The notes below the pieces were generated by a model. That model did not search any database, was not told where the DNA came from, and saw only the letters and a program-made list of their open reading frames with translations. Position numbers and translations under genes: made by a program. Shown piece after piece: positions 5,924 through 41,954 of a stretch of 64,000 nt of DNA. Source of the stretch: Streptomyces lydicus (lineage in GTDB: Bacteria; Actinomycetota; Actinomycetes; Streptomycetales; Streptomycetaceae); NCBI RefSeq assembly GCF_001729485.1, contig NZ_CP017157.1, positions 5,394,001 to 5,458,000 on the forward strand, written 5' to 3'. How positions within the stretch are numbered: position 1 is the first letter of the stretch; every line of letters starts with the position of its first letter.

Positions 5924-5941
5924 GCCGCCGGGGACGCCGAA

Positions 5942-5981
5942 GGGGCCGCGGTCACCGGCGGTGCGCCGGTGCCGCGGCCCC
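5942..5981. terminator. bidirectional terminator between convergent genes
   Basis: GGGGCCGCGG (5942-5951) plus CACCGGC (5953-5959) pair with GCCGGTG and CCGCGGCCCC (5965-5981), giving 17 pairs with one bulged T. It separates the flavoprotein gene from the convergent conservon operon. Confidence 0.75.
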
Positions 5982-6016
5982 CTGGCCGCCCCGCCGGGCC
6001 GGCCGCTGCGGCCGGT

Positions 6017-6622
6017 TCAGCGGGCCTCGCGCTGCTGCTGCTCCATCTGATGGATCTGCTCGACGAGTTCGGCGGCCATCGCCTTGATGGTCGCCAGCCC
6101 CTCGCGCCCCCAGGGCCGCGGTTCGAGGTCCACGACGCAGACGGTGCCGAGCGCCATGCCCGTACGGTCGATCAGCGGCGCGCCGAGGTAGGAGCGGATG
6201 CCGATCTCGTCGACGACGGGGTTGCCGGCGAACCGCGGGTAGTCGCAGACGTCCTCCAGCACCAGGGCCTTGCGGCGGACGATGACGTGCGGGCAGTAGC
6301 CGTGGTCGCGGTCCATCACCCGGCCGGGCCGGGCGCTGGCGGGCGCCGGGCCCAGCTCGACGGCCCGGTCCTCGGCGGGCGTGTAGAGGCCGGCGAAGTA
6401 CTGCCGGTGCTCGTCGATGAAGTTGACCATCGAGTAGGGCGCCCGGGTGGTGTGGGCGAGTTTGCGCGCGAACCGGTCGAACGCGGGCAGCGGGTGGTCC
6501 CCGATACCCAGAGCGCGCAGCCGGGCCACGCGCGCCGGGGCCTCGTCGTCCTGAGGCGTGAGCAACAGATGCCGCGTCGGGTCGTAGGAGACGTACGGGA
6601 CGCGGGAGGCGGGGTGGTTCAC
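6017..6622 (-). CDS. GAF-domain protein at the end of the conservon operon
   Basis: A 201-residue protein with one GAF domain (about 40-180; SMVNFIDEHRQYFAGL, FCRDHGY-like region DRDHGYCPHV, SYLGAPLID and GTVCVVD). GAF domains bind small ligands or mediate protein contacts; no catalytic module is attached, so it is likely a sensor or adaptor for the conservon. The GTG start at 6622 overlaps the stop of the upstream GTPase gene (GTGA), indicating translational coupling. It is the fifth and last gene of the cvn operon, in a position where some conservons carry other accessory genes. Confidence 0.8.
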   Translation of the reverse strand: MNHPASRVPYVSYDPTRHLLLTPQDDEAPARVARLRALGIGDHPLPAFDRFARKLAHTTRAPYSMVNFIDEHRQYFAGLYTPAEDRAVELGPAPASARPGRVMDRDHGYCPHVIVRRKALVLEDVCDYPRFAGNPVVDEIGIRSYLGAPLIDRTGMALGTVCVVDLEPRPWGREGLATIKAMAAELVEQIHQMEQQQREAR

Positions 6623-10096: not shown

Positions 10097-10308
10097 CGGT
10101 GCCCTCCGGATCGGCCGTTGGCTGTTCGCGGAGCACGCACGCTAGTTGTTGCAGGGGTGGGGTCCGGACCCACTTCGGGGTTTCGCTACCCCACGCCACC
10201 TCCTTGGGTGGACGGCCCGCGCACATCAGTACGACGCAAACCGAACGACCGTTCCGCAAGGGCGAGTTGAGGCCACGAGGCGTGGCGTCGCACAGGTTCA
10301 CGAACGGC

Positions 10309-10353
10309 GCTCGCCGGCTCCCGCGCGCCGGGCGGGCGCAGGGGCCGGCGAGC
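10309..10353 (-). terminator. terminator of the SapA-like gene
   Basis: GCTCGCCGGC (10309-10318) and GCCGGCGAGC (10344-10353) form a perfect 10-bp stem just after the stop codon of the SapA-like gene. Confidence 0.6.
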
Positions 10354-10362
10354 CGTGGCGGT

Positions 10363-10800
10363 TCAGCCGCAGTGGCCGTCCTTGGTCACGTACTGGTCGG
10401 CGATCTGCCCCCGCCAGGTGACGCAGGCGAAGCGCGCGGGAATGTACACCGGCCCGGCGTAGGAGGTGTAGGCACCCGAATCGGAGGCGCTGACCTGGGT
10501 GTTGCCGGTCTGGAACACCTTGGCGTGCATATAGACCGCCGCACCCGGCCCGGTCCGCACGGTCACCGCGCAGTTCTCCCCGGTCGTGGCGTTCCACGTC
10601 AGGTACGCCGTCCCCAGACTGCCGATGTTGCCGAAGTCCACCACCTTGTACCCGGCCCCGCACACCCCGTTGTACGCGGCCACGGCGGACTCGGCGGTGC
10701 CGGCCGCCGCGGCGGAGGCAGGCACCGCGAAGGCGGTGGCACCGACCGTCGCCGCGGTCGCCAGCGCGGTGACGACGGCAGCCCTGCGCATGCGCTTCAT
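10363..10800 (-). CDS. secreted SapA-like (spore-associated protein A) protein
   Basis: A 145-residue exported protein. The start MKRMRR, a hydrophobic Ala/Val stretch and a cleavage site near ASAAAAG form a Sec signal. The mature part is rich in Gly, Thr, Ser and Tyr and has four cysteines (VCGAGYKVV, NCAVTV, ACVTW, HCG), probably two disulfides. The pattern of CGAGYK near the mature N terminus, TAYLTWNATTGENCAVTVR in the middle and YTSYAGPVY followed by CV.W near the end matches streptomycete spore-associated protein A as I remember it. Mature function is unknown. ATG 10800 was chosen over a longer in-frame start because it begins the signal peptide. Hairpins stand on both sides. Confidence 0.7.
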   Translation of the reverse strand: MKRMRRAAVVTALATAATVGATAFAVPASAAAAGTAESAVAAYNGVCGAGYKVVDFGNIGSLGTAYLTWNATTGENCAVTVRTGPGAAVYMHAKVFQTGNTQVSASDSGAYTSYAGPVYIPARFACVTWRGQIADQYVTKDGHCG

Positions 10801-10889
10801 GACACTCCCCGGTTCACTCAGGGGCGCTTCCTGCACCCGCAGAGGAAGACCACCGGGGCCCCCGGGGAGTTGTGGCGTGAAGTGTCACC

Positions 10890-10922
10890 GGTGCGTCACC
10901 GTGTCCGGCGCGGTGACGCACC
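10890..10922. promoter_or_regulatory. 12-bp inverted repeat upstream of the SapA-like gene
   Basis: GGTGCGTCACCG (10890-10901) and CGGTGACGCACC (10911-10922) form a perfect dyad with a 9-nt spacer, 90-120 nt before the SapA-like start. It could be a second terminator or an operator. Confidence 0.45.
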
Positions 10923-10930
10923 GCCACCCC

Positions 10931-10952
10931 GTGGCCTCCGGCCGGAGGCCAC
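10931..10952 (-). terminator. terminator of the metallo-hydrolase gene
   Basis: A perfect 22-bp palindrome (half-site GTGGCCTCCGG), 28 nt after the stop codon of the metallo-beta-lactamase-fold gene. Confidence 0.6.
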
Positions 10953-10980
10953 GGTCAAGGCACCTCCCCCGCAGGCGCGT

Positions 10981-12156
10981 TCACCGCTCCGCGGCGAGGT
11001 CGGCGCCGGCGGGCGAGACCACCGGCGGCCATGCGGGCCACCCCTGCACAGGGGGTACCGCGATCGCCCGCCACCAGGGGGCGACGACCGGCGGGTCGGC
11101 GGGCTCGAAGGGCTTGCCGGGCGGGGGCGCGGCTATCTGTGCGCCGGCCCGCCGGCCCGCCATGACCGTCCGCTCCACGGGCTCGGACCAGGGGTGCGGA
11201 GCGAGGTTGAAGGTGCCCCAGTGGATGGGCAGCAGCACGCCTTCCGGGGTTCCGCCGGACAGGTCGACATGGGCCCGCAGGCCCTCCTCCGGGGTCATGT
11301 GGATGTCGGGCCAGAAGTCGCTGTACGCGCCGATCTGCATCATCGTCGCGTCGAACGGGCCGTGGGCCGCGCCGATCTCCGCGAATCCGGGGAAGTAGCC
11401 GGTGTCGCCGCTGTGGTAGACGCGGTGTTCGGGCCCCGCGACCACCCAGGAGGCCCACAGGGTGTGCTGCGGACCGCGCAGACCGCGGCCGCAGAAGTGC
11501 TGGGCGGGGGTGGCGGTGAGGGTCAGGCCGCCGGTCCGGGTGGACTCGTGCCAGTCGAGTTCGGTGATCCGCTCCGCCGGCACGCCCCAGAACTCCAGGT
11601 CCGCACCGATCCCGAGCGGTACGACGAAGGCGGCACCGGTGCGGATCAGGCCCCGGACGGTCGACATGTCGAGGTGGTCGTAGTGGTCGTGCGAGATCAC
11701 CACGACGTCGACCGGCTCCAGCTCGTCCAGCTCGACGGGCACGGGATGCATCCGCTTGGGGCCGGCCCAGGTGACCGGCGAGCAGCGCTCCCCCCACACC
11801 GGGTCGAACAGCACCCGCCGGCCGTCGATCTCGACCAGCACGCTCGAATGCCCCATCCAGGTGAGCCGCAGCCCGGACGCGGGCGGCCGGCGCCGGTCCT
11901 CGGGGGCCTGCCGGTGCACCGGGATCGGACCCACCGGGGCGCGGCGCAGCCGGCCCTCACGGCTCAGCTGGGTACGCGCCATCGGCAGCGCGGAGCCGTG
12001 CAGCAGCTGTCTGGTGGGCACGGGATTGCGGAACTGGCCGTCCACGAACTGCGGAGACCTGCGCATCCTGGCCAGCCGTTCCCCGGTGGGCACGGCGCCG
12101 AAGCTCGCGGGCCGCAGCGCGGACAGGCCAATACGGCGGGATCGGAAACCGGTCAC
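10981..12156 (-). CDS. metallo-beta-lactamase-fold hydrolase, NAPE-PLD/UlaG-like
   Basis: A 391-residue metal-dependent hydrolase of the Lactamase_B_2 group. WMGHSSVLVEIDG and the dinuclear metal motif SHDHYDHLD are seen, with further ligands in TPAQHFCGR, YHSGDTGY and LPIHWGTFNL. This architecture is shared with N-acylphosphatidylethanolamine phospholipase D and UlaG-type enzymes, so a phosphodiester or lactone substrate is plausible but not shown. The GTG at 12156 follows GGAGG by 4 nt; longer in-frame starts lack such a site. No signal peptide. It is followed by a palindromic terminator. Confidence 0.85.
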   Translation of the reverse strand: MTGFRSRRIGLSALRPASFGAVPTGERLARMRRSPQFVDGQFRNPVPTRQLLHGSALPMARTQLSREGRLRRAPVGPIPVHRQAPEDRRRPPASGLRLTWMGHSSVLVEIDGRRVLFDPVWGERCSPVTWAGPKRMHPVPVELDELEPVDVVVISHDHYDHLDMSTVRGLIRTGAAFVVPLGIGADLEFWGVPAERITELDWHESTRTGGLTLTATPAQHFCGRGLRGPQHTLWASWVVAGPEHRVYHSGDTGYFPGFAEIGAAHGPFDATMMQIGAYSDFWPDIHMTPEEGLRAHVDLSGGTPEGVLLPIHWGTFNLAPHPWSEPVERTVMAGRRAGAQIAAPPPGKPFEPADPPVVAPWWRAIAVPPVQGWPAWPPVVSPAGADLAAER

Positions 12157-12327
12157 GGCACCTCCATGTACGGGGCAGTCGCGAAGTGAACGGGCCGCGC
12201 GAGCGGTGAGTTCCGGCCGACCGGACCACGCGGCGCCGCCGTGCTGCAAGCACCACCGCGACACCCGGACTCACACCATCCACCCGCGGCAGGAACCGCG
12301 CGACCGGCGGTGACCGAACCGGCGGAA

Positions 12328-13170
12328 CTACTCGAACTCAAGTACGAGATAATCCTCCACCGGCCGATAGCCCAGCCGCCGGTACAGCGCGTTGCTGGTG
12401 CGGTTGGCCAGGTCGGTGAAGAGCAGCACCTCCTGCGCACCGGAGTCCGTGGCGGCCTGCGACACGGCGGCCGTCACCGCCCCGGCGTAACCGCGTCCAC
12501 GCAGCTCGGGCGGGGTGTACACGGGCGCGACGCGGACCGTGTCGACGAGCGTGCGGGTGATCCCGGCCATCGAGACGGGCCGCCCGCCGGCCTCCCACAG
12601 CAGACACCGCCCGTCGGCGATCCGGGCGTCGAGCGCGCGGGCGCCACGGGGCGCCGCGGCACCGATGTCCTCGGCGAAGGCGGCGAACCACCCGCGCAGC
12701 AGCTCCCGGTCGGCGGGGGTGGCGCGCCGGGCGGCCCCGGGTGGCGCGGGGTCCGGCGGCGTCAGTTCCGTCAGCCGGTGGAGCCGGCGGCGAGCGGCGG
12801 TGCGCACCGTTCCGTGCCGGCGCCAGGCCGCGGCGAACGCCTCGGCGGCCGCCCGGCCGGCGTTGACCCCCGGCACGCCGGCCCGCGCCGCGGCCAGCAC
12901 GTCCGCCAGGTCGGCCGCGGCCCCGTCCGGCATCGGCGAGAGCAGCACCGGCCGCGGCGGCGTCCAGACGTACGCGGCATCCACCGCGACCCGTCCGCCG
13001 CACCGCCGCCAGCCGAACGACGGGGCGTCCTCGCCGTACGCATCCGCCCCGAGCGCCCGCAGCGAGGACACCACCGACAGCAGCACGGTGTGCTCGGCCG
13101 GCCGCGCACGCAGGAAGTCCCCGGCCGCCGCCTCGAACGCGTCGAGGTCCCGGGTCGTCGTCCACGTCAT
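12328..13170 (-). CDS. GNAT-family N-acetyltransferase
   Basis: A 280-residue protein with a C-terminal GNAT domain (about residues 145-280). The acetyl-CoA binding motif A reads YTPPELRGRGYAGAVTAAV, and the last strand/helix gives TDLANRTSNALYRRLGYRP. The N-terminal half is a divergent, possibly degenerate second GNAT-like lobe (HTVLLSVVSSLRALGADAYG). The acceptor substrate is unknown. ATG at 13170; the gene follows the FAD oxidoreductase after 66 nt on the same strand and may be co-transcribed. Confidence 0.85.
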   Translation of the reverse strand: MTWTTTRDLDAFEAAAGDFLRARPAEHTVLLSVVSSLRALGADAYGEDAPSFGWRRCGGRVAVDAAYVWTPPRPVLLSPMPDGAAADLADVLAAARAGVPGVNAGRAAAEAFAAAWRRHGTVRTAARRRLHRLTELTPPDPAPPGAARRATPADRELLRGWFAAFAEDIGAAAPRGARALDARIADGRCLLWEAGGRPVSMAGITRTLVDTVRVAPVYTPPELRGRGYAGAVTAAVSQAATDSGAQEVLLFTDLANRTSNALYRRLGYRPVEDYLVLEFE

Positions 13171-13236
13171 GCCGCATCCTCTCCCGGGCCGAGGCCGTCC
13201 GCAGCCGGTTTCCGGTGCCGCGCCCCGTCGCGCGGT

Positions 13237-14637
13237 TCAGAGCGGCTCGACGGTCGGGGGCGGGGCCGGCAGGCCGGGGCGGCGGGGCCGCAGGAGGGTG
13301 CGCAGCACGATCCTCGGGGCGAGCAGCCGGGCGGGCGGGGCGGTGAGGCAGAAGACGTCCCGGAAGGCCGCGCCCACGACGGCGTCGACGGCGGCCCGGG
13401 CGTGCAGCCGGTCGATGTACCAGGTGCTCAGCCGCTCCACCGGCCGCGCCGTCCGCTGCCCGGAACCGGCGTACGGGCGGTCCGCGCCGACCGCTGCCAG
13501 CCAGGCGGGCTCCGCGGCCCGGGCCACCGCCCGCTGCGCCGCGGCGGCGCTCCCCGGGCGCAGCCCGCCGGCGGCGTCGAGCGCGCCGCGCACCGCCAGC
13601 GCCCCCAGCGCGGCGACCGACATGCCCTGCCCGTAGACGGGGTTGAAGGTGCAGCCGGCGTCCCCGAGGACCAGGAAGCCCTCGGGCAGCGCGCCGGGCC
13701 GCTCGAAGTGCCGGCGGCGGTTGCAGGTGTCGTGGAAGCCGTACACCGGCGAGAGCGGCTCGGCGTACCCGAGCAGCTCGTGGACGTACGGGTCGCCGAT
13801 CGTGGCGCTGAAGGCGGTGAACTCCACGGCGTCCGTGGGCGGATGGTGGCCGCGCACCCCGGACAGGGTCAGCAGCCACGCGCCGTCCTCGACGGGGACG
13901 TAGGCGGCGCCGCGCGGGCACTCGGGCCAGCCGGGGACGTTGACGCCGACCGCGGGGGCGGTGTCCGGGTCCTTGGGACGGTACATCCGGGTGGCGTACG
14001 CCAGCCCCGCGTCGACGATCTCCTCCTGGGGCGCGCTCCGGCCCAGTTCGGCGTACCAGTGGGGCGCGCGGGAGCCGCGGCCCGAGGCGTCGACGACGAG
14101 GGCCGCCGGCAGGTCCCGCCGGGCGCCCCGCCCTCCGTCGCGCGCGCGGACGCGGACCCCGGTCACCCGGTCGGCGTCCCCGGTGAGCCCGGTGACCTCG
14201 GTCGCTTCCAGGACCTCGACGCGGGTGGACGAGCCGGCGGCGGCCCGCAGCGCGCGTTCGCGTACCACCGCGTCCAGCACCGGACGGGTGACGCTCAGCG
14301 TCCGGTGCCGCCGCTCGTCGAAGCGGCGCTGCCACCCGGTGGGCGTACGGGTGAGCAGGTCGCGCGGCAGATAGAGGCTGCGCGCGCCCGCCTCACCGAG
14401 CGCGGCGGCGGTGCCGGGCAGCAGCTCCTCCAGGGCGCGCTGACCGCCGCTGAGGAGGATGTGCAGATGGCGGGCCTGCGGGACGCCCTTGCGGAAGGCG
14501 CGCCCCTCCGGATAGCGGTCGCGCTCGACGACGGTGATCGCCTCGACGTGTCCCAGCAGGGCGGTCACGGCGAGCATCCCGGCGAGTCCACCGCCGATCA
14601 CGATCGCGGTGCGCCCGCCATTGGAGTGCTCTGCCAT
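13237..14637 (-). CDS. FAD-dependent oxidoreductase, monooxygenase/epoxidase-like
   Basis: A 466-residue flavoprotein with an N-terminal Rossmann motif (VIGGGLAGML, about residues 12-21), the ERDRYPEGRAFRKGVPQARHLHILL segment typical of group A monooxygenase and halogenase-like proteins, DASGRGSRAP, and the FAD pyrophosphate motif GDAGCTFNPVYGQG. The family hydroxylates or epoxidises hydrophobic substrates; I see no halogenase WxWxIP motif. ATG 14637 (MAEHSNGG) is used because it sits directly before the Rossmann strand; a longer frame to 14733 is possible. Divergent from the PfkB kinase gene. Confidence 0.83.
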   Translation of the reverse strand: MAEHSNGGRTAIVIGGGLAGMLAVTALLGHVEAITVVERDRYPEGRAFRKGVPQARHLHILLSGGQRALEELLPGTAAALGEAGARSLYLPRDLLTRTPTGWQRRFDERRHRTLSVTRPVLDAVVRERALRAAAGSSTRVEVLEATEVTGLTGDADRVTGVRVRARDGGRGARRDLPAALVVDASGRGSRAPHWYAELGRSAPQEEIVDAGLAYATRMYRPKDPDTAPAVGVNVPGWPECPRGAAYVPVEDGAWLLTLSGVRGHHPPTDAVEFTAFSATIGDPYVHELLGYAEPLSPVYGFHDTCNRRRHFERPGALPEGFLVLGDAGCTFNPVYGQGMSVAALGALAVRGALDAAGGLRPGSAAAAQRAVARAAEPAWLAAVGADRPYAGSGQRTARPVERLSTWYIDRLHARAAVDAVVGAAFRDVFCLTAPPARLLAPRIVLRTLLRPRRPGLPAPPPTVEPL

Positions 14638-14981
14638 CCCTGCCTCGCTCCCCCGGGGCCCGTTGCCGGTGCCGCCCCATCCGCTCACGGTCGGCCCTGG
14701 CGCTGCAGGGCACCCGTCATGGTGCCAACTCACCTTGCGGCGGCCCGAGTCGGGGCCCCCTCCGGTTCACCGCCGGCCCCCCTCGGCCGTCCGCGCACCA
14801 CCGGCAACGACCCTCCTGTGCGGCTTCTTGCGCGCCCGTTGTCCCCTCGTGCCACCCCCGTCCCCGACATCCCGATTTGCGGCGGGCCTGCGTCTAGACT
14901 CCCCGCAGCGGACGCTCCTCGTCCGCAAACGGTCTCACCGGCAAGGGATTCGCCTCACCAGCAAGGGATTCAGGGACGCTT
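14638..14981. other. divergent intergenic region with a 20-bp tandem duplication
   Basis: 344 nt between the FAD oxidoreductase and PfkB genes. TAGACT (14894-14899) could be a -10 box for pfkB but has no clear -35. Two imperfect 20-bp copies sharing GCAAGGGATTC lie at about 14936-14975, directly before the pfkB ribosome site. No gene is seen. Confidence 0.5.
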
Positions 14982-32853: not shown

Positions 32854-32884
32854 AGGCCCCCGCGAGTCCACCTCGCGGGGGCCT
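32854..32884 (-). terminator. terminator of the ABC exporter operon
   Basis: A perfect 13-bp stem, AGGCCCCCGCGAG (32854-32866) with CTCGCGGGGGCCT (32872-32884), 5-nt loop, directly after the ATPase gene. Confidence 0.8.
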
Positions 32885-32900: not shown

Positions 32901-33704
32901 CTACTTGCCCGTCTCCTTCTCGTACGCCTTGATGACCTCGTCGGTGGGGCCGTCCATCAGCAGTTCGCCGCGTTCCAGCCACAGCACGCGGTCGCAGGTG
33001 TCGCGGATGGACTTGTTGTTGTGGCTGACCAGGAAGACCGTGCCGGCTTCCTTGCGCAGCTCGCGGATGCGGGCCTCGGAGCGCTTCTGGAAGGCCCGGT
33101 CGCCGGTGGCCAGGGCCTCGTCGATCATCAGCACGTCGTGGTCCTTGGCCGCGGCGATGGAGAACCGCAGCCGGGCGGCCATGCCGGAGGAGTAGGTGCG
33201 CATCGGCAGCGAGATGAAGTCGCCCTTCTCGTTGATGCCGGAGAAGTCGACGATGCCGTCGTAGCGCTCGCGGATCTGCTCACGCGACATGCCCATGGCC
33301 AGACCGCCCAGGACGACGTTCTTCTCGCCGGTCAGGTCGTTCATCAGGGCCGCGTTGACGCCCAGCAGCGAGGGCTGGCCGTGGGTGTAGACCTTGCCGC
33401 GCTCGGCGGGCAGCAGCCCGGCCACCGCCTTGAGCAGCGTGGACTTGCCCGAGCCGTTGGAGCCGATCAGGCCGATGGACTCGCCGCGGTAGGCGGTGAA
33501 GGACACGCCCTTGACCGCGTGCACCTCGCGCACACCGGTGGACGGCTTGCGGCGGATGATCCGGTTCAGCGCCGCGGTGGCACTGCCCCGGCCCGCACCG
33601 GTGCCGTAGACGCGGTAGACGATGTGCAGGTCGTCCGCGATCACCGTCGGGATACGCTCCCCCGCCGCCTCGGTCGGCTGGAGGCCGTTGTTCTGCTCAG
33701 CCAC
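32901..33704 (-). CDS. ABC transporter ATP-binding protein, TagH/Wzt-like
   Basis: A 267-residue ATPase of the polysaccharide/teichoic-acid export type. Walker A GSNGSGKST, signature TYSSGMAARLRFSIA, Walker B DVLMIDEALATGD and H loop LVSHNNK. The long N-terminal region before Walker A (VREVHAVKGVSF preceded by about 60 residues) is typical of TagH/Wzt. There is no C-terminal substrate-recognition domain. GTG at 33704 with GAGGAG upstream overlaps the permease stop by 8 nt. Last gene of the seven-gene operon. Confidence 0.92.
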   Translation of the reverse strand: MAEQNNGLQPTEAAGERIPTVIADDLHIVYRVYGTGAGRGSATAALNRIIRRKPSTGVREVHAVKGVSFTAYRGESIGLIGSNGSGKSTLLKAVAGLLPAERGKVYTHGQPSLLGVNAALMNDLTGEKNVVLGGLAMGMSREQIRERYDGIVDFSGINEKGDFISLPMRTYSSGMAARLRFSIAAAKDHDVLMIDEALATGDRAFQKRSEARIRELRKEAGTVFLVSHNNKSIRDTCDRVLWLERGELLMDGPTDEVIKAYEKETGK

Positions 33705-34635
33705 GTCCGTACCGCTCCTCAGCCTTCCAGAAGTACACAAAACCGACGACGCCCATCAGCAGCGCCCATCCGCCGGCGAACGCCCACACGTGCGGCGGCA
33801 GCTGCTTGTGCGTGAAGCTGTCGATCAGCGCGAAACGCATCAGGTCGATGTACACCGCGGCCGGATTGGCGTAGAGCAGGACCTCGACGAACTGCGGGAC
33901 GTGCTTGCCCTTGAGGATCAGGTCGATGCTGAACATCACGCCGGACGCGTACATCCACGTCCGCATGATGAAGGGCATCAGCTGCGCCAGGTCCGGGGTC
34001 TTGGAGCCCAGCCGCGCCATGACCATCGCCAGGCCGGTGTTGAACACGAACTGCAGGGCCAGCGCCGGGAGCACCAGCAGCCAGGACCAGGTCGGCATCT
34101 GCCCGAAGCCGAGCAGGATCAGCACCAGCACGCCCATCGAGAACAGCAGCTGCTGCAACTGCATCAGGCAGAACGACACCGGCAGACACGCCCGCGGGAA
34201 GTGCAGCGCGCGCACCAGACCGAGGTTGCCGGAGATCGCCCGGGTACCGGCCATCACCGAACTCTGGGTGAAGGTGAAGATGAAGACGCCGGTCACCAGG
34301 AACGGGACGAAGTCGGGGACACCCTTCCGCGTACCGATCAGCAAGCCGAAGATCAAGTAGTAGACGAGCGCGTTCAGCAGGGGCGTGGCCACCTGCCAGA
34401 CCTGTCCCAGCTTGGCCTGGCTGTACTGCGCCGTCAGCTTCGCGCTGGCGAAGGCGGAGATGAAGTGCCGCCGCTGCCACAGCTGCCGGACGTACTCCGG
34501 GAGGCTGGGCCGGGCCCCGCTCTGCGCGAGCCCGTACTTCTGGGCCCGCTGGGCGGGCGAGAGCCCTTCGTCGGAAGCTGGCGGGGCACTCATGGCGACC
34601 GCACTGTCGTGCGTGGTCTCGCTCACAGTTGACAC
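33697..34635 (-). CDS. ABC-2 type permease, TagG/Wzm-like exporter
   Basis: A 312-residue membrane protein with six predicted hydrophobic segments, among them LLNALVYYLIFGLLIG, VPFLVTGVFIFTFTQ and the last segment WAFAGGWALLMGVVGFVYFW. YSQAKLGQVWQVATPLLNALVYY is the ABC2_membrane entry motif. With the TagH-like ATPase it should export an undecaprenol- or lipid-linked glycan or polyol polymer. GTG at 34635 follows GAGGA by 5 nt; a GTG three codons later is possible. It is 68 nt after the glycosyltransferase gene. Confidence 0.9.
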   Translation of the reverse strand: MSTVSETTHDSAVAMSAPPASDEGLSPAQRAQKYGLAQSGARPSLPEYVRQLWQRRHFISAFASAKLTAQYSQAKLGQVWQVATPLLNALVYYLIFGLLIGTRKGVPDFVPFLVTGVFIFTFTQSSVMAGTRAISGNLGLVRALHFPRACLPVSFCLMQLQQLLFSMGVLVLILLGFGQMPTWSWLLVLPALALQFVFNTGLAMVMARLGSKTPDLAQLMPFIMRTWMYASGVMFSIDLILKGKHVPQFVEVLLYANPAAVYIDLMRFALIDSFTHKQLPPHVWAFAGGWALLMGVVGFVYFWKAEERYGRG

Positions 34636-34703
34636 TTTCGTCCTCAAGGTGCGCTGCCGGGGCCACGCCCCGGTTCGCGCTGATGCTCTCAGATACGAGC
34701 TTG

Positions 34704-35612
34704 TCAGATGACGGGTGGGCGGCCCAGTCGGGTCAGTCGCCAAACGGTAGCCCACTTCATGGGGCGCCTGGGACCGCACGGGGTCGCCCAGCCCTCCTTG
34801 AAGCCGCCCAGCCAGGCCCGCAGCGCCGGTCGCGACGGCCGGCGGGCGAGGGTGAGCAGAAACCAGACACCGAGATAGACCGGAACCAGCAGGGCGGGGA
34901 GGTTGCGGCGGGCCAGCCAGACGCGGTTCCTGGCCACCATCCGGTGGTAGACCGCATGCCGGGCCGGGGCCGTCGTCGGGTGGAAGAGGACCATGTCCGA
35001 CCGGTAGTCGATCAGCCAGCCCGCGTCCAGCGCCCGCCAGGCCAGGTCGGTCTCCTCATGGGCGTAGAAGAAATCGTCGGGCAGCCCGCCGACCTCCTCG
35101 AACACCTTCGTACGGACCGCGTTCGCGCCGCCCAGGAAGGTGGTCACCCGCGAGGAGCGCATCGGGTCGGACGCGCGCAGCCTGGGCACGTGCCGGCGCT
35201 GGGTCTCCCCGGTCTCCGGATCGGCGATCCGGAAGCTGATGATCCCGAGCCCGGGGTCCTCGGCGAACGCCTTGCGGCACAGCTCGGCGGTGTCCTCCCT
35301 GGCCAGCAGCCCGTCGTCGTCCAGGAACAGCAGGACGTCGACCTCGCTGCCGCCGGGGCCGAACGCCTCGATGCCGACATTGCGGCCCGCCGGGATGCCG
35401 ACGTTCTCCGGCAGCTCGACGGTCCGCACGTCCACACCGGGAACGGCCAGCTCGGGCAGCGGCGAACCATTGCCGACGACGGCGATCGCGATCGGGTCGC
35501 CGTGCTGCTTGGCGACCGAGTCCAGCAGCGCCCGCAGCTCGTCGGGGCGGTTGCCCATGGTCAGGACGACCGCACCGACGCGCATGCTCGTACCCACATC
35601 GGCTCCCGTCAC
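34704..35612 (-). CDS. family 2 glycosyltransferase
   Basis: A 302-residue GT-A glycosyltransferase of the rhamnosyl/galactofuranosyl-transferase-like type. AVVLTMGNRPDELRALLDSV starts the nucleotide-binding fold, LLFLDDDGLLA carries the DxD metal site, and FYAHEETDLAWRALDAG is the acceptor/catalytic ED region. It has no strong membrane segment apart from a possible C-terminal helix (LLVPVYLGVWFLLTLA). The GTG at 35612 overlaps the upstream stop (GTGA); an ATG at 35585 also fits. Donor sugar and acceptor are unknown. Confidence 0.88.
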   Translation of the reverse strand: MTGADVGTSMRVGAVVLTMGNRPDELRALLDSVAKQHGDPIAIAVVGNGSPLPELAVPGVDVRTVELPENVGIPAGRNVGIEAFGPGGSEVDVLLFLDDDGLLAREDTAELCRKAFAEDPGLGIISFRIADPETGETQRRHVPRLRASDPMRSSRVTTFLGGANAVRTKVFEEVGGLPDDFFYAHEETDLAWRALDAGWLIDYRSDMVLFHPTTAPARHAVYHRMVARNRVWLARRNLPALLVPVYLGVWFLLTLARRPSRPALRAWLGGFKEGWATPCGPRRPMKWATVWRLTRLGRPPVI

Positions 35613-36388
35613 TTGAGCCTGCTGGAGGCGAGGATGGACACGAGGTGGAGCAGCGTCTGCAGCAGCGCGATGCCGGCCAGCACGGCAACGCCCAGACGGG
35701 AGAAGAACAGGTCGCCCCGTACCGTGTCCAGGACCGCCAGGACCAGGATCAGCAGGGACGCCTCGACGCCGAGGACGAGCCGGTGGAACTTCAGCGCCGC
35801 GGCCGCCTTGCGGGCCAGCGCCATACCGGACGAGCGCGGCTCGGACGCCGCCTCCTTGACCGGCGGCAGCCCGCCCTGGTGACGGGCCACGCCGACGAGG
35901 TCGGTCTCGGCCTTGATCAGGATGGCGCCGAGGGCCGCGAGGGTGCCGAGGAACGCCCACAGCCAGTCGATCCGCCCCGCGCCCCACAGGTCGGCGGCGC
36001 GCAGGCCGAAACCGACCAGGACCGCGGCGTCGCACAGGTAGGCGCCGACCCGGTCCAGGTACACGCCGCCCAGCGAGAACTGCTTCTTCCAGCGGGCGAT
36101 CTCGCCGTCGACGCAGTCCAGCAGCAGGTAGAGCTGGACCATCAGCACGCCGAGCACGGCGCCCCAGATCCCCGGCACCAGCAGCGCCGGGGCGGCGAGG
36201 ACGCCGAAGACGGTCATCAGGTAGGTCAGCTGGTTGGGCGTGACCCGCGTGTTCACCAGGTGCCGGTCGATGCGCAAGGAGATCTCGCGCATGTAGAGCC
36301 GGCCGGCCCAGTGCTCACCGCTGCGCCGGTCCTTGACACCCGCGGGGTGCACGACCGGGCGGAGTTCAGCTACTGACGGCTTGTGCAT
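35609..36388 (-). CDS. CDP-alcohol phosphatidyltransferase-family protein, final motif Asp replaced
   Basis: A 259-residue membrane protein with about six hydrophobic segments. The family motif reads DCVDGEIAR then GVYLDRVGA: Asp91, Asp94, Gly95, Ala98, Arg99, Gly108 and Asp112 are present, but residue 116, where the fourth Asp (proposed base) should be, is Ala. The family joins CDP-activated alcohols to a second alcohol and releases CMP. Either it is a divergent enzyme or a partner of the second family member encoded upstream. ATG at 36388 lies within the end of the dehydrogenase gene (23-nt overlap). Confidence 0.85.
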   Translation of the reverse strand: MHKPSVAELRPVVHPAGVKDRRSGEHWAGRLYMREISLRIDRHLVNTRVTPNQLTYLMTVFGVLAAPALLVPGIWGAVLGVLMVQLYLLLDCVDGEIARWKKQFSLGGVYLDRVGAYLCDAAVLVGFGLRAADLWGAGRIDWLWAFLGTLAALGAILIKAETDLVGVARHQGGLPPVKEAASEPRSSGMALARKAAAALKFHRLVLGVEASLLILVLAVLDTVRGDLFFSRLGVAVLAGIALLQTLLHLVSILASSRLK

Positions 36389-37427
36389 AGTCGGCGTAAG
36401 CGTCCCTGATCTGGTCGGTGGACAGGTCGAGGTGCTCCAGGATGGTGTAGCGCCCGGGGCGGGTCTTGGGTGCGTACTCGACGGCCTGGACGAATTCCTC
36501 GTCCGTGAAGCCGATCTCACCCGGCGTGACCGGCAGCCCGTGCCGGCGCAACACCTCGACCATCAGGTCCCGGGTCTCCTTGTCCCCGCGCAGATGCGTG
36601 GCGAAGGCGGCGGCGAGGCCGCACTGCTCGCCGTGGCTCGCGGCGCGCTTGGGGAAGAGGATGTCGAGCGCGTGGTTGATCTCGTGGCAGGCGCCGGACG
36701 CCGGACGGCTGTCGCCGGCCACCGACATCGAGATGCCGGTGAGGACCAGGCCCTCGGCGAGCACCTGGAGGAAGTTGTCGTCGCCGACCCCTCCGGGGTG
36801 CCGCAGCACGGCCTCGCCGGCCTGGCGCGCCATGGCGGCGGCCAGCCCGTCGATCGCCTCGCCGGTCTCGCGGTGCGAGAGCTCCCAGTCCGCGACCGCG
36901 GAGATGTTGGAGATCGCGTCGCCGATACCGGAGCGGACGAACCGGACCGGGGCCTCACGGATGATGTCGAGGTCGATCACCACGGCGATCGGGTTCGGCA
37001 CACCGTAGGAGCCGCGGCCCGCGTCGTTGTCCAGCGTGGCGACCGGCGAGCACAGGCCGTCGTGCGAGAGGTTCGTCGCGACGGCGACCAGCGGCAGGCC
37101 GATCCGCGCGGCGGCGAACTTGGCGCAGTCGATGATCTTGCCGCCACCGAGGCCCACGACCGCGTCGTAGTGCCCCTTCTTCATGGCGTCGGCGAGCTTG
37201 ATCGCTTCATCCAGCGTGCCGCCGCCGACCTCGTACCACTCGGCGCCGGGCAGCGCGGGGGACAGCCGCTCGCGCAGCCGCGCCCCCGAGCCGCCGCTGA
37301 TCGCGATGGCGAGCTTGCCGGACGCGGAGATGCGCTGATCGGCCAGCAGGCCCGCCAGGTCGTCCAGGGCGCCGGCGTTGATGTCGACGACGACCGGGGA
37401 CGGAATGAGGCGGGTCAGTACTGGCAT
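36366..37427 (-). CDS. glycerol-1-phosphate dehydrogenase-like iron-containing alcohol dehydrogenase
   Basis: A 353-residue member of the sn-glycerol-1-phosphate dehydrogenase (EgsA/AraM-like) family. GLGGGKIIDCAK is the NAD(P) site; ATNLSHDGLCSP, RSGIGDAISNISAVADW, SRPASGACHEINHALD and SHGEQCGLA carry the expected Asp and two His metal ligands. The family reduces DHAP to G1P, the archaeal enantiomer. Context with a cytidylyltransferase and CDP-alcohol transferases suggests G1P, or a similar polyol phosphate, is activated as a CDP derivative. ATG at 37427; it overlaps both neighbours (13 and 23 nt). Confidence 0.85.
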   Translation of the reverse strand: MPVLTRLIPSPVVVDINAGALDDLAGLLADQRISASGKLAIAISGGSGARLRERLSPALPGAEWYEVGGGTLDEAIKLADAMKKGHYDAVVGLGGGKIIDCAKFAAARIGLPLVAVATNLSHDGLCSPVATLDNDAGRGSYGVPNPIAVVIDLDIIREAPVRFVRSGIGDAISNISAVADWELSHRETGEAIDGLAAAMARQAGEAVLRHPGGVGDDNFLQVLAEGLVLTGISMSVAGDSRPASGACHEINHALDILFPKRAASHGEQCGLAAAFATHLRGDKETRDLMVEVLRRHGLPVTPGEIGFTDEEFVQAVEYAPKTRPGRYTILEHLDLSTDQIRDAYADYAQAVSS

Positions 37428-38152
37428 GCGATGTCACGGCCCTTCGCCAGGTCGTCGTGGTTGTCGATCTCGACCCACTTGACGTCGCCGATCGGGGCCA
37501 CGTCCACCTTGAAGCCGCGGTTGACCAGCTCCTGGTAGCCGTCCTCGTAGTAGAGGTCGGGGTCCCGCTCGAAGGTGGTCTTCAGGGCGTCGGCCAGCTC
37601 GTCGGCGGCCTCGCCCTCGATGAGGGTGACACCGATGTACTCACCGGTCGCCTCGGCCGGGTCCATCAGCTTCGTGATCTTCTGGACGCCCTTGGCGGGG
37701 TCCACGACGACCTTCATCTCCTCGTCGGCGAGCTGCTTGACGGTGTCCAGCGCGAGGATGATCTTCTGGCCGTTGCCGCGGGCGGCGAGCAGGGTCTTCT
37801 CGACGGAGACCGGGTGCACGGTGTCGCCGTTGGCGAGGATCACGGTGTGCTTGATGGAGTCACGACCGCACCACAGGGAGTAGGCGTTGTTCCACTCCTC
37901 GGCCTTGTCGTTGTCGATCAGGGTGAGCTTGAGGCCGTACTTCTGCTCCAGGGCCTCCTTGCGCTCGTACACGGCCTCCTTGCGGTAGCCGACGATGATC
38001 GCGACCTCGGTCAGGCCGATCTCGGCGAAGTTGCCGAGGGTCAGGTCGAGGATGGTCGTGTCCCCGTCGACCGGCACCAGTGCCTTGGGCAGGGTGTCGG
38101 TGTAGGGGCGCAGACGCCGTCCGGCGCCGGCAGCCAGCACGAGGCCGATCAT
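37415..38152 (-). CDS. CTP:phosphoalcohol cytidylyltransferase (LicC/IPCT-like)
   Basis: A 245-residue nucleotidyltransferase. LVLAAGAGRRLRPYT is the NTP signature (GxGxRLxP), LPKALVPVDG carries the Lys, and NGDTVH, YEDGYQELVNRGF and VEIDNHDDL match the phosphocholine/inositol-phosphate cytidylyltransferase branch more than hexose-1-phosphate enzymes. It probably makes a CDP-alcohol for the phosphotransferases beside it. ATG at 38152 overlaps the upstream stop (ATGA). Confidence 0.86.
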   Translation of the reverse strand: MIGLVLAAGAGRRLRPYTDTLPKALVPVDGDTTILDLTLGNFAEIGLTEVAIIVGYRKEAVYERKEALEQKYGLKLTLIDNDKAEEWNNAYSLWCGRDSIKHTVILANGDTVHPVSVEKTLLAARGNGQKIILALDTVKQLADEEMKVVVDPAKGVQKITKLMDPAEATGEYIGVTLIEGEAADELADALKTTFERDPDLYYEDGYQELVNRGFKVDVAPIGDVKWVEIDNHDDLAKGRDIACQY

Positions 38153-39954
38153 GCGGGTTCTCCTTCATCGTGTACGGCGGGTGCTTGGGAGGACACCCAG
38201 AAGCGGATGCTCTCGGCGAGCACCAGCAGCGCCAGGACCACAGCAAGGGCCGTCAGCGCGATTGTGAAACCTGAGGGGGACAGCGCGGCAGCGAGGACGG
38301 TGACCACGAGGATCCGTCCCTCGGCGCCGCCGGTCGCCCGGACCAGCCACCGCGGGGGGGCTCCGGTGCCACCGCGGATGCGGTAGACCGTGTCGTAGTG
38401 ATGGTAGGCGACCGCCGCGACCAGCCCGAACGCCGCGGGCAGGGCCCCGGGGACGTCCGCGCGGGCGGCCAGCACCAGGATCGTGACGTACTCGCCGGCC
38501 CGGAAGAACGGCGGTACGAGCCAGTCGAGGGCGCCCTTGAGCGGGCGGGAGACGGCCGCACCGGCCAGCAGCGCCGAGGCGGCGGCCACGCCGACGGTGA
38601 GCCAGGACGAGGGGTCGTCCTCGAAGATCACCCAGATCAGCAGCACCGCGGCCGAGAGAAACGCCATAGCGGGGGCGAGGTAGGAACCGGTCCGGCCCCG
38701 GCCGCGCGTACCGCGGGCGATCAGCTCGGCGACCGGCCCCGAGTCGGCGAGGTCGGCCAGCGCCTGGGCGGCGCGGTCGGTGCGCCGGGCCCGCCGGGTC
38801 AGCGAGCGCAGCACGCGTCCCGCGGTGGTGTAGCAGGCGGCCAGCGCACAGACGACGAGCAGGGCGTAGAAGACGATGCGCGGGGTGGTGAGGGCGGTGA
38901 GCACGGCGATCATGGCCCAGCGCTCGCCGATCGGCAGCACGATCATCCGGCGTACCCAGACCGTCCAGCCGACGCTGTCGAGCTTGTCGGAGAGCGCGGC
39001 GGTCGGGCTGGTGTTGGCCGTGGCGTCGTGGTTCGCCTCGTTGAAGGAGAAGTCGACGACGTGGCGGCAGGTCTGCAGCACCATCGCGCCGAGCGCCAGC
39101 GCCCATACGTCGTCCCCGCCGCGCGCGGCGCCCAGGGCCAGGCCCGCGTAGTACGCGTACTCCTTGGCCCGGTCGAAGGTGGCGTCCAGCCAGGCACCCA
39201 GCGTCGAGTACTGCAGGGAGTAGCGGGCGAGCTGCCCGTCGGTGCAGTCCAGGACGAAGGAGAAGAGCAGCAGCAGGCCGGCCGCGACGAAGCCGCCGCG
39301 GGTGCCGGTGGCCGCGCAGCCCGCCGCGATCAGCGCGGTGAGCAGCGAGGCCGTGGTGACCTGGTTGGGGGTGAGGCCGCGGCGCGCGCACCAGCGGGCG
39401 AGGTAGCGGGAGTACGGGCTGATGCCGAAGGTCGTGAAGAACCCGTCGCGGGACTTCACGGCGGTGCGCAGCCGTACCGCCTCGTCGTCGACGGCGGCGA
39501 CCGCCTCCCGTGCCTCCTCGCGCCGGGCGGGCGTGAGGGCGACGGTGGCGACCAGGCTGCCCAGCTCGACGCGGTGCAGGCCGACGGCGTCGTGGTCCAG
39601 GGACTCGGTGAGCGTCTCGGTCAGCACGTCCGTGAGGTGGGCGGTGCCGGCGCCGACCGGGATCCGGCCGACCGCGCGGGCCAGCGCGGGTCGCGCCTCG
39701 GGCTGGACGGTGAGCGCACCGGGCACGGCGGCGGCCGGGAAGCGGGGGTCGGTCAGCGCGAGCCGGAGCGCGTGCAGATGCCCCACGAAGCGGGGATCGA
39801 CGACGGCGATCCGCTGCTGCGCGGGCAGGCCGGCGATCAGCTCGGCCACCGACGCGGGGTCGTTCGCCGTACGGACGTCAAAGCCCAGCGTGCGCAGGTC
39901 GGCTTCGAGCGGCGACCCGGCGACCGGCGAACCGGTGAGGATGGCGGTCGACAG
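38149..39954 (-). CDS. CDP-alcohol phosphotransferase with extra N- and C-terminal domains, apparent CTG start
   Basis: A large protein (about 601 residues) whose central part holds a complete CDP-alcohol phosphotransferase motif, LDCTDGQLAR followed by GAWLDATFDR, with all four aspartates (first at about residue 236). The first 150 residues look like a soluble nucleotidyltransferase-related or DUF5941-type domain; the C terminus has several more membrane segments. GTG 39849 would drop residues STAILTGSPVAGSPLE that read as good coding sequence; upstream of them a stop at 39963-39961 leaves only CTG 39954 as start, 9 nt after AAGGAG. First gene of the operon. Confidence 0.85.
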   Translation of the reverse strand: MSTAILTGSPVAGSPLEADLRTLGFDVRTANDPASVAELIAGLPAQQRIAVVDPRFVGHLHALRLALTDPRFPAAAVPGALTVQPEARPALARAVGRIPVGAGTAHLTDVLTETLTESLDHDAVGLHRVELGSLVATVALTPARREEAREAVAAVDDEAVRLRTAVKSRDGFFTTFGISPYSRYLARWCARRGLTPNQVTTASLLTALIAAGCAATGTRGGFVAAGLLLLFSFVLDCTDGQLARYSLQYSTLGAWLDATFDRAKEYAYYAGLALGAARGGDDVWALALGAMVLQTCRHVVDFSFNEANHDATANTSPTAALSDKLDSVGWTVWVRRMIVLPIGERWAMIAVLTALTTPRIVFYALLVVCALAACYTTAGRVLRSLTRRARRTDRAAQALADLADSGPVAELIARGTRGRGRTGSYLAPAMAFLSAAVLLIWVIFEDDPSSWLTVGVAAASALLAGAAVSRPLKGALDWLVPPFFRAGEYVTILVLAARADVPGALPAAFGLVAAVAYHHYDTVYRIRGGTGAPPRWLVRATGGAEGRILVVTVLAAALSPSGFTIALTALAVVLALLVLAESIRFWVSSQAPAVHDEGEPA

Positions 39955-40535
39955 ACGAACTCACTCCTTGGATGCTGACAAGGCAGCACGGGCCGGTTCG
40001 CAGTCGATCCGCATTCGATACGAACTACCCGGGCAGCGGGCGTGGCACACCTGGCGCCCGGTGGGCTGGGGTGGCACGTCGGCAGAGGCTATCGGATCGC
40101 CGGATGCGGCCGTTCACCGCACATTCACCGCACGATCGAGTGACCGACGGCTGCGCCTGCCGCGATCATCATGGTGGATCGGGGGGCGCATGAACAACTG
40201 GCCAGGGGCCCGGCGTCCGATCCGGTGCCGGTTATGAGCGGGCTGGTCACAGGGCGGGCGGGTTGTGCCGGGGCAGGTGCGGCACCAGCCGTCCCGGGCC
40301 CGGCAAAGATCATCGCTCCCGCCGCGGCCGGCGGGCCGCGCCACCCGGCGCCGGCCGCACCCGACGGGCCGGCGGGCGCGAATGTGGCCCCTTTCACGGC
40401 GGACGCACAGCGGTTCGCCGACGGGCGCGCGCGGCGTACGGCGCGCGGGCGGTGTGGCGCCGCGCACCCGCTGTGCCGCTGATCAGGGCCCGGCTAGGGC
40501 AGACTTGACGTCGTAGACCGACGACAAGGATGGGC
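39955..40535. other. divergent intergenic region before idi
   Basis: 581 nt between the seven-gene operon and idi. It contains two direct copies of TTCACCGCAC (40113-40122 and 40124-40133, 11-bp period) and a GTGCCG/CGGCAC dyad (40265-40285). Frames here have no recognisable protein features. TTGACG (40504-40509) and TAGACC (40513-40518) overlap the idi 5' region but are not spaced as a promoter. Confidence 0.5.
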
Positions 40536-41147
40536 ATGCCGATCACACCTGCCAACGGACAGACCACCGCGAACGCGGCGGTGACCACACCGGGCGGCGC
40601 CGCCGAACCGATCATGCTGGAACTGGTCGACGAGGACGGTCGGACGATCGGCACCGCGGAGAAGCTCGCGGCGCACCAGCCTCCGGGCCAGCTGCACCGG
40701 GCGTTCTCGGTCTTCCTCTTCGACGAGAAGGGCCGGCTGCTGCTCCAGCGCCGGGCGCTGGGGAAGTACCACTCCCCCGGTGTGTGGTCCAACACCTGCT
40801 GCGGTCACCCCTACCCCGGTGAGGCGCCGTTCGTCGCCGCGGCCCGCCGCACCACGGAGGAGCTGGGGCTCGCCCCCGCGCTGCTGGCCGAGGCGGGCAC
40901 GGTGCGTTACAACCACCCGGACCCGGACTCCGGGCTCGTGGAGCAGGAGTACAACCACCTGTTCGTGGGGCTGGTGCGGACCGAGCCCGCGCCGGACCCC
41001 GAGGAGGTCGGCGAGATCGCGTTCGTGACGCCGCAGGAGCTGGCCGAGCGGCACGCCGCGGCGCCGTTCTCCTCGTGGTTCATGACCGTGCTGGACGCGG
41101 CCCGTCCGGCGGTGCGTGAACTCACCGGGCAGTCGGCGGGCTGGTAG
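40536..41147 (+). CDS. idi: isopentenyl-diphosphate delta-isomerase, type I
   Basis: A 203-residue Nudix-fold isomerase interconverting IPP and DMAPP. NTCCGHPYPGE holds the catalytic Cys and metal His, and VEQEYNHLF the ExE metal/catalytic glutamates; LLLQRRALGKYHSPGVW precedes them. It supports the hopanoid and other isoprenoid pathways. I use ATG 40536, with AAGGA about 6 nt upstream; an ATG two codons earlier is in frame. The 3' end overlaps the convergent ATPase gene by 26 nt. Confidence 0.95.
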   Translation: MPITPANGQTTANAAVTTPGGAAEPIMLELVDEDGRTIGTAEKLAAHQPPGQLHRAFSVFLFDEKGRLLLQRRALGKYHSPGVWSNTCCGHPYPGEAPFVAAARRTTEELGLAPALLAEAGTVRYNHPDPDSGLVEQEYNHLFVGLVRTEPAPDPEEVGEIAFVTPQELAERHAAAPFSSWFMTVLDAARPAVRELTGQSAGW

Positions 41148-41870: not shown

Positions 41871-41880
41871 TACACATCAG

Positions 41881-41954
41881 TAGCGGGGACAGGATTTGAA
41901 CCTGCGACCTCTGGGTTATGAGCCCAGCGAGCTACCGAGCTGCTCCACCCCGCG
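41881..41954 (-). tRNA. initiator tRNA-Met (CAT)
   Basis: The minus strand folds as a 74-nt tRNA starting CGCGGGG and ending CCCCGCTA, with anticodon CAT in the loop CTCATAA. Three consecutive G-C pairs flank the anticodon loop (GGG/CCC) and position 1 is unpaired with position 72 (C/T), both marks of initiator tRNA. The CCA end is not encoded. Confidence 0.95.

Follow-up and report, generated by a model that had tools for sequence, protein, structure and literature searches.

A conserved operon of Streptomyces lydicus that may supply CDP-activated sn-glycerol-1-phosphate to an exported teichoic-acid-like product

Several bacteria use an adjacent reductase and cytidylyltransferase to convert a ketose phosphate into a cytidine diphosphate (CDP)-polyol for a surface polymer. 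Such pairs yield CDP-ribitol in Haemophilus influenzae and Staphylococcus aureus and CDP-6-D-glucitol in Campylobacter jejuni (PMC10918830, PMC4873967), the order of reductase and cytidylyltransferase being reversed in the CDP-6-D-glucitol pathway (PMC10918830). Here we describe an operon with a similar pairing, at positions 32901–39954 on the minus strand of a 64,000 nt stretch of Streptomyces lydicus DNA (GCF_001729485.1, NZ_CP017157.1, 5,394,001–5,458,000); this whole stretch is referred to as the window, and coordinates are window positions. Unlike the CDP-polyol pairs, the operon has a reductase of the glycerol-1-phosphate dehydrogenase (G1PDH) family beside its cytidylyltransferase-type enzyme (CTPT), and its expected product is CDP-1-glycerol. 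On balance we think it somewhat more likely than not, from the predicted functions of its genes, that the operon both produces CDP-activated sn-glycerol-1-phosphate (G1P) and uses it to build an exported teichoic-acid-like polymer or glycolipid.

In the pathway that we propose, G1PDH would reduce dihydroxyacetone phosphate to G1P and CTPT would join G1P and CTP to form CDP-1-glycerol, or the two steps could run in the reverse order by way of CDP-dihydroxyacetone. The membrane CDP-alcohol phosphotransferase-type protein CAPT1, together with a second protein, CAPT2, where present, would transfer glycerol-1-phosphate to an acceptor such as a lipid-linked sugar, the glycosyltransferase GT2 would add a sugar, and TagGH would export the product. 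This would be a teichoic-acid-like glycopolymer or a short phosphoglycolipid whose glycerol phosphate would be the mirror image of that in ordinary wall teichoic acid, and CDP-1-glycerol could also supply TagF-family polymerases encoded elsewhere in the genome. We infer the substrates, stereochemistry, acceptor and product from the observed gene content, order and conservation, the predicted folds, and the co-occurrence and co-location with TagF and TagGH.

The operon shares features with several other described systems. Like the wall teichoic acid pathway (TagD, TagB/F and TagGH) it has a predicted CDP-glycerol donor and a TagGH exporter, with TagF elsewhere in the genome; unlike that pathway it has neither TagD nor TagF among its seven genes, contains CDP-alcohol phosphotransferase-type proteins, and is expected to handle sn-1, not sn-3, glycerol phosphate. 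Archaeoglobus AF2299 and the IPCT-DIPP synthase also combine a cytidylyltransferase-type domain with a CDP-alcohol phosphotransferase whose donor is small and polar (PMC4634129, PMC8633023), whereas the operon has separate genes, a dehydrogenase, GT2 and an exporter, and its CAPT1 lacks the fourth aspartate of the family signature. Another bacterial G1PDH-family enzyme is AraM of Bacillus, which is paired with PcrB; here no PcrB is found above cut-off and the partner of G1PDH is a cytidylyltransferase-type enzyme. Certain bacterial enzymes, among those of the TagD type and the TagF-like capsule polymerases, can form or consume CDP-1-glycerol in vitro, although their natural substrate is of sn-3 configuration and no source of G1P is known, in contrast to the present operon with its own G1PDH (PMC8262930, PMC5974469). 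A 2021 paper considered CDP-1-glycerol likely to be absent from bacteria.

The first-pass annotation of this DNA had been aware of no characterised bacterial pathway with this set of genes. The neighbourhood itself has since proved to be already published, in a 2026 synteny study of 929 Streptomyces genomes that lists a region of crtB, tagH, tagG and araM under teichoic acid biosynthesis and secondary metabolism; within the portions of that study available to us, no pathway or product is proposed and neither CDP-1-glycerol nor the missing aspartate is raised (PMC13118837). Nor is the operon mentioned in the corresponding portions of papers on Streptomyces wall polymers (PMC11481543) and on the use of G1P by acyltransferases (PMC13400652); these sources belong to the open-licence literature, and a subscription paper could exist.

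Gene order and conservation of the operon

Domain profile searches identify seven minus-strand genes, with the domains that the first-pass annotation had named. The first, CAPT2 (38149–39954), encodes a canonical CDP-alcohol phosphotransferase domain (PF01066, 36.1 bits) followed by a C-terminal DUF5941 domain of unknown function (315.8 bits) in a Pfam search of 38149–39849; the N-terminal 190 residues or so have no Pfam match in this search, which began at 39849. It is followed by CTPT (37415–38152), a LicC/IPCT/PntC-type nucleotidyltransferase gene predicted to serve CDP-1-glycerol synthesis, by the EgsA/AraM-like G1PDH gene (36366–37427), by CAPT1 (35609–36388), and by GT2 (34704–35612; GTG start; PF00535, 42.2 bits). 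The last two genes encode a TagG/Wzm-like ABC-2 permease (33697–34626; PF01061, 45.1 bits) and a TagH/Wzt-like ABC ATPase (32901–33704). TagH scores under the cut-off of its best NCBIfam model, TagH PRK13546 (176.8 versus 320 bits), which is still the top-scoring family. Five of the six junctions overlap, namely CAPT2/CTPT (4 nt), CTPT/G1PDH (13 nt), G1PDH/CAPT1 (23 nt), CAPT1/GT2 (4 nt) and TagG/TagH (8 nt), and the sole non-overlapping junction is a gap of 77 nt between GT2 and TagG.

The operon end at 39954 fits a non-ATG start for CAPT2. We place this start at a CTG codon (39954–39952), ahead of which an AAGGAG ribosome-binding site can be read from the sequence (39964–39969, minus strand). 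In every one of the 68 homologues matched as far as the N-terminus the start codon is CTG (42) or TTG (26), and a GGAGTGAG box lies ahead of the start in each of the 12 homologues displayed. At the other end, a GC-rich hairpin 3' of TagH (32854–32884, minus strand; 13-bp stem, -31.8 kcal/mol, z -3.5) is a probable terminator, as the first-pass annotation had supposed, and 2 of 200 shuffled sequences fold equally well; it has no T-run, however, and is not among the calls of a terminator scan of the window. By eye, a comparable hairpin is present at the same place in one relative (L031).

Conservation was examined in 197 genomes of the class Actinomycetes, 16 of them Streptomyces, with relatives of G1PDH taken at E<=1e-20. 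Such relatives occur in 47 of the 197 genomes, including all 16 of the genus, and in these 16 CTPT, G1PDH and TagG are grouped; the S. lydicus genome itself, a single 8.2-Mb contig, has one G1PDH match. We inspected 40 of the 51 match places, up to 20 kb each: 11 primary loci and 2 second copies in Streptomyces, and 27 loci outside the genus. The order CAPT2-CTPT-G1PDH-CAPT1-GT2-TagG-TagH is unbroken in all 11 primary loci, which is far above chance, and CTPT, G1PDH and TagG stand at the expected spacing in four further Streptomyces genomes.

Outside the genus the core CTPT-G1PDH-CAPT1-GT2 recurs in other Actinomycetes at 40–71% identity, partly with more distant TagGH. The tightest pair is CTPT-G1PDH, adjacent in 37 of the 40 loci; no CTPT was found in L035 and L067, and L061 is cut by a contig end. 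Of the 40 loci, 31 have CAPT1 and 25 a relative of TagG or TagH. A second set consists of the best 80 of 590 stretches, some cut by contig ends, and brings the total to 120 loci; the relatives named in it belong mostly to Streptomyces and related genera. Within these best 80, CTPT is present in 80, CAPT1 in 79, GT2 in 78, TagG and TagH in 75 each, the first synthase gene of the neighbouring hopanoid region in 70 and CAPT2 in 63. Because CAPT2 is missing from six of the seven Kitasatospora and all three Streptacidiphilus loci in this set, we rejected it as an essential transferase. From the pattern in which CAPT2, TagGH and the synthase genes come and go we therefore conclude that the core consists of CTPT-G1PDH-CAPT1-GT2, which in this family usually has TagGH alongside, and that CAPT2 and the hopanoid neighbours are optional.

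The hopanoid neighbours had been noted in the first-pass annotation, and a domain search does find two squalene/phytoene-synthase genes adjoining the operon in the window. The 11 primary Streptomyces loci have these two genes downstream (farther away in L032) and a NUDIX/idi-like gene upstream. The arrangement is not kept in all relatives, however: within the stretches examined the seven genes are present without the synthase genes in Embleya hyalina (L077) and Streptomyces sp. NBS 14/10 (L130), as are six of the seven in Streptacidiphilus jeojiense (L126), and no synthase gene was seen in the 27 loci outside the genus (up to 20 kb). These relatives weaken the case for a functional tie, and the link to hopanoids looks incidental. 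Matches to hpnE served as position markers and were excluded from all counts, the query being out of frame with 4 stops. On the other side of the operon, the idi-like NUDIX gene (40530–41147) points away from it, and a tRNA-Met gene (41880–41954) lies about 0.7 kb past.

Some loci depart from the common layout. The second G1PDH copy in genome G133 (L035) is without CTPT and has two TagF genes within 10 kb, and the second-copy CTPT and G1PDH pair of L040 stands beside rplU and obgE; both second copies adjoin a large open frame, of 1,113 aa in L035 and 1,404 aa in L040. The G1PDH of L071, on a contig labelled as a Bifidobacterium breve metagenome-assembled genome (CALQPL010000023.1, apparently also the contig of L060), shares 98% identity with the G1PDH of actinobacterium acAMD-2 (L072), and the organism label of this contig looks wrong.

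Association with TagF and TagGH

The TagF family (PF04464) is found in 45 of the 47 genomes with G1PDH versus 45 of the 150 others (Fisher p 9e-17, uncorrected for phylogeny). At E<=1e-40 the counts are 43 of 47 versus 22 of 150, and 27 of 31 versus 22 of 150 when Streptomyces is set aside. TagD (TIGR01518), in contrast, is above cut-off in none of the 197 genomes, and its matches of at least 100 bits fall in 13 genomes, none of them among the 47 with G1PDH.

Physical linkage is seen in genome G068, where CTPT, G1PDH, TagG, TagH, a GT2-TagF protein and a GT1-type glycosyltransferase are encoded consecutively on the same strand (L158). This is a selected example, picked for a TagF place near G1PDH; an unselected scan finds TagF-like genes in 5 of the 120 loci (L035, L062, L070, L073 and L077). 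The S. lydicus genome has a second TagG and TagH, respectively 82–84% and 94% identical to those of the operon, beside a GT2-TagF gene (L154, C1:1000000-1019900, 8932–14661). The TagH identity of 94% is unusual for a pair within one genome and suggests a recent duplication or gene conversion. A second TagG is present in 15 of the 16 Streptomyces genomes, G089 having the operon's copy alone. In 14 of these 15 no more than about 11 kb separates the second TagG from a PF04464 place, and G153 carries it on a different contig.

Because of this association with TagF and TagGH, together with the run in L158 and the lack of a clear TagD and of PcrB, two of the three products suggested by the first-pass annotation, a G1P-based teichoic-acid-like polymer and an exported glycolipid, are favoured over the third, a DIPP-like solute.

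Elsewhere in the S. lydicus genome, an apparent exopolysaccharide cluster (L187, C1:4517000-4528000, 4986–6210) contains a diverged TagD-like gene (69 bits, PF01467) beside a canonical CDP-alcohol phosphotransferase gene, a second pairing of a cytidylyltransferase with a CDP-alcohol transferase in this genome.

The predicted enzymes

The dehydrogenase was correctly recognised as EgsA/AraM-like by the first-pass annotation. It passes the gathering cut-off of PF13685 (Fe-ADH_2) with 98.9 bits against 28, and in NCBIfam the G1PDH model gives it 242.3 bits, the glycerol dehydrogenase model 88 and the glycolaldehyde reductase model 71.5. Among the five best PDB matches, four, the top one included, are named G1PDH and one is a glycerol dehydrogenase. 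The motifs GxGD, SRPxSGxxHxxxH and HG, presumably metal and substrate sites, are confirmed by alignment with the G1PDH of 4rgq; SRPxSGxxHxxxH and HG are kept in all 13 aligned copies, as is GxGD apart from a GxGE in one.

CTPT has a nucleotidyltransferase fold matching PF00483, with a predicted structure of mean predicted local distance difference test (pLDDT) score 95.5. Its best solved relative by sequence is LicC, in agreement with the LicC/IPCT-like enzyme of the first-pass annotation, and by fold it is nearest to PntC, followed by IPCT and LicC. UDP- and dTDP-sugar pyrophosphorylases also score 25–27 in the fold comparison, so that the fold leaves the substrate unfixed; in the structure lists for both CTPT and CAPT1, absence of a given fold is no evidence. 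Choline activation of the LicC type is not favoured, though the fold does not give a substrate.

Both CAPT1 and CAPT2 have the domain or fold of CDP-alcohol phosphotransferases, as the first-pass annotation had supposed, but CAPT1 lacks the proposed catalytic aspartate. The signature DxxDGxxAR(x8)GxxxDxxxD is intact in all 22 aligned copies of CAPT2, that of the window included. The corresponding signature of CAPT1, D91..DG..AR........G...D...A116 (36041–36118, minus strand), has alanine in place of the fourth aspartate and a further aspartate, D120, one turn on. Among 107 pattern-matched homologues, 58 carry Ala and 49 carry His at this position, and three more, read by eye, carry Ala, so that all 110 have Ala or His; all 110, like the window, have Asp or Glu four places, or one helical turn, after it. 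The pattern demands a set context and odd copies may escape it: 13 of the 120 loci are unmatched, these being the three read by eye, nine without a CAPT1 match at the threshold and L115, which shows no CAPT1 match. By comparison, seven of the eight PF01066 proteins of the S. lydicus genome retain the fourth aspartate, one with shifted spacing. This replacement of the fourth aspartate in CAPT1 homologues is new here. In two loci (L052:8656-9375 and L056:10439-11158) CTPT-G1PDH is followed not by CAPT1 but by a CDP-alcohol phosphotransferase of a third type, whose signature is canonical.

The fourth aspartate is the proposed catalytic base of a signature described as absolutely conserved, and its change to Asn in PIP synthase almost abolishes activity with binding unharmed (PMC4634129). 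The predicted structure of CAPT1 (pLDDT 81) has the six-helix fold of the family, and both sequence and fold comparison place it nearest to AF2299, a crystal of which contains CDP-glycerol (PMC4634129, PMC8633023). Its conservation speaks against decay; CAPT1 would appear to use another base or a different mechanism, or to have a non-catalytic role.

Alternative readings and implications

Several observations weigh against the proposed pathway. No TagG or TagH relative was seen in the other 15 of the 40 loci, and in two of the three Streptacidiphilus loci TagGH is absent beside the core in the stretch examined. TagF is not encoded in the operon, and 22 genomes have strong PF04464 matches and no G1PDH; a clear TagD is present in only 6 of these, and other donors must therefore exist. 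Seven of the 16 Streptomyces genomes have no TagD match, yet nine have diverged matches of 31–69 bits, and the TagD-like protein of S. lydicus could itself make CDP-3-glycerol. G1PDH falls under the equivalog cut-off of PRK00843 (242.3 versus 413 bits), a model that in a control set gave a match in 13 of 14 genomes, B. subtilis included, and was passed at its cut-off in only 3, and a haloarchaeal relative annotated as G1PDH turned out to be a glycolaldehyde reductase (PMC9700705). Because the top NCBIfam score of CTPT is for UTP-glucose-1-phosphate uridylyltransferase (66 bits versus a cut-off of 400) and its nearest fold is that of the phosphonate-specific PntC, we go no further than to infer its use of CTP. 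Lastly, with its catalytic-base aspartate missing and the equivalent PIP synthase variant nearly dead, CAPT1 may lack activity or have another role.

It is possible, though unlikely in our judgement, that CTPT activates another phospho-alcohol (inositol phosphate, phosphocholine or a phosphonate) and that G1P is the acceptor, giving an X-phospho-glycerol solute or head group like DIPP or glycerophosphoinositol. The resemblance of CTPT to PntC and IPCT by fold and to LicC by sequence would suit this, as would weak matches to NF041135, the IPCT-DIPP synthase model, by CTPT (50.1 bits), CAPT2 (45.9 bits) and CAPT1 (55.5 bits), each separate protein missing the 580-bit cut-off set for the fused one; CDP-alcohol transferases with soluble substrates are also known (PMC4634129). 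It fits poorly, however, with a GT2 and a polysaccharide-type exporter in the operon, with the CTPT-G1PDH-TagG-TagH-TagF run of L158, and with L040, where CTPT-G1PDH has no CDP-alcohol-transferase motif within 20 kb. Slightly less probable still is that the dehydrogenase reduces glycerol, glycolaldehyde or another carbonyl compound in vivo, or that the pathway runs on sn-glycerol-3-phosphate and CDP-3-glycerol; the sub-cut-off PRK00843 score and the misannotated haloarchaeal enzyme lend this some weight, against which stand the far higher score for G1PDH than for the other two functions, the names of its best PDB matches and its conserved motifs.

Similarity of the transferases to PIP synthase and archaetidylinositol phosphate synthase raises the further idea that both make a phospholipid from CDP-diacylglycerol and either G1P or a different head group, CTPT having some other function, which we regard as very unlikely. 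Least probable of all is that, as in Bacillus, G1PDH works with GGGPS/PcrB to supply ether lipids of archaeal type, notwithstanding a 2019 report that counts Streptomyces among the genera with species having orthologues of all three archaeal lipid genes (PMC6431249). PF01884 (PcrB/GGGPS), positive in control genomes including B. subtilis and four archaea, is above cut-off in none of the 197 genomes, and the 16 Streptomyces genomes lack any match at E<=1e-3; 14 weak matches elsewhere are partial (19–23 bits) and none is in a genome with G1PDH. We therefore reject this role for the sampled genomes, although the proposal of PMC6431249 may hold for single Streptomyces species.

The supply of activated G1P to an exported teichoic-acid-like polymer or glycolipid is thus the reading we prefer, and it amounts to a surprising stereochemical prediction for a known type of surface-polymer pathway. 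The handedness of glycerol phosphate is held to divide bacterial from archaeal membranes, and bacterial G1PDH genes are often taken as a sign of archaeal-type lipids. A G1PDH accompanied by a cytidylyltransferase-type enzyme and a polysaccharide exporter, without GGGPS, points instead to cell-envelope polymers. More tentatively, and with somewhat less than an even measure of confidence, we suggest that probably hundreds of actinomycete species make CDP-sn-glycerol-1-phosphate for a surface polymer or glycolipid of archaeal handedness, with CAPT1 working without the catalytic aspartate. If this is true, CAPT1 would be an example of the replacement of a residue that has been called absolutely conserved, the presence of G1PDH in many bacteria without PcrB/GGGPS would be explained, and Streptomyces-type bacteria would carry mirror-image teichoic acids.

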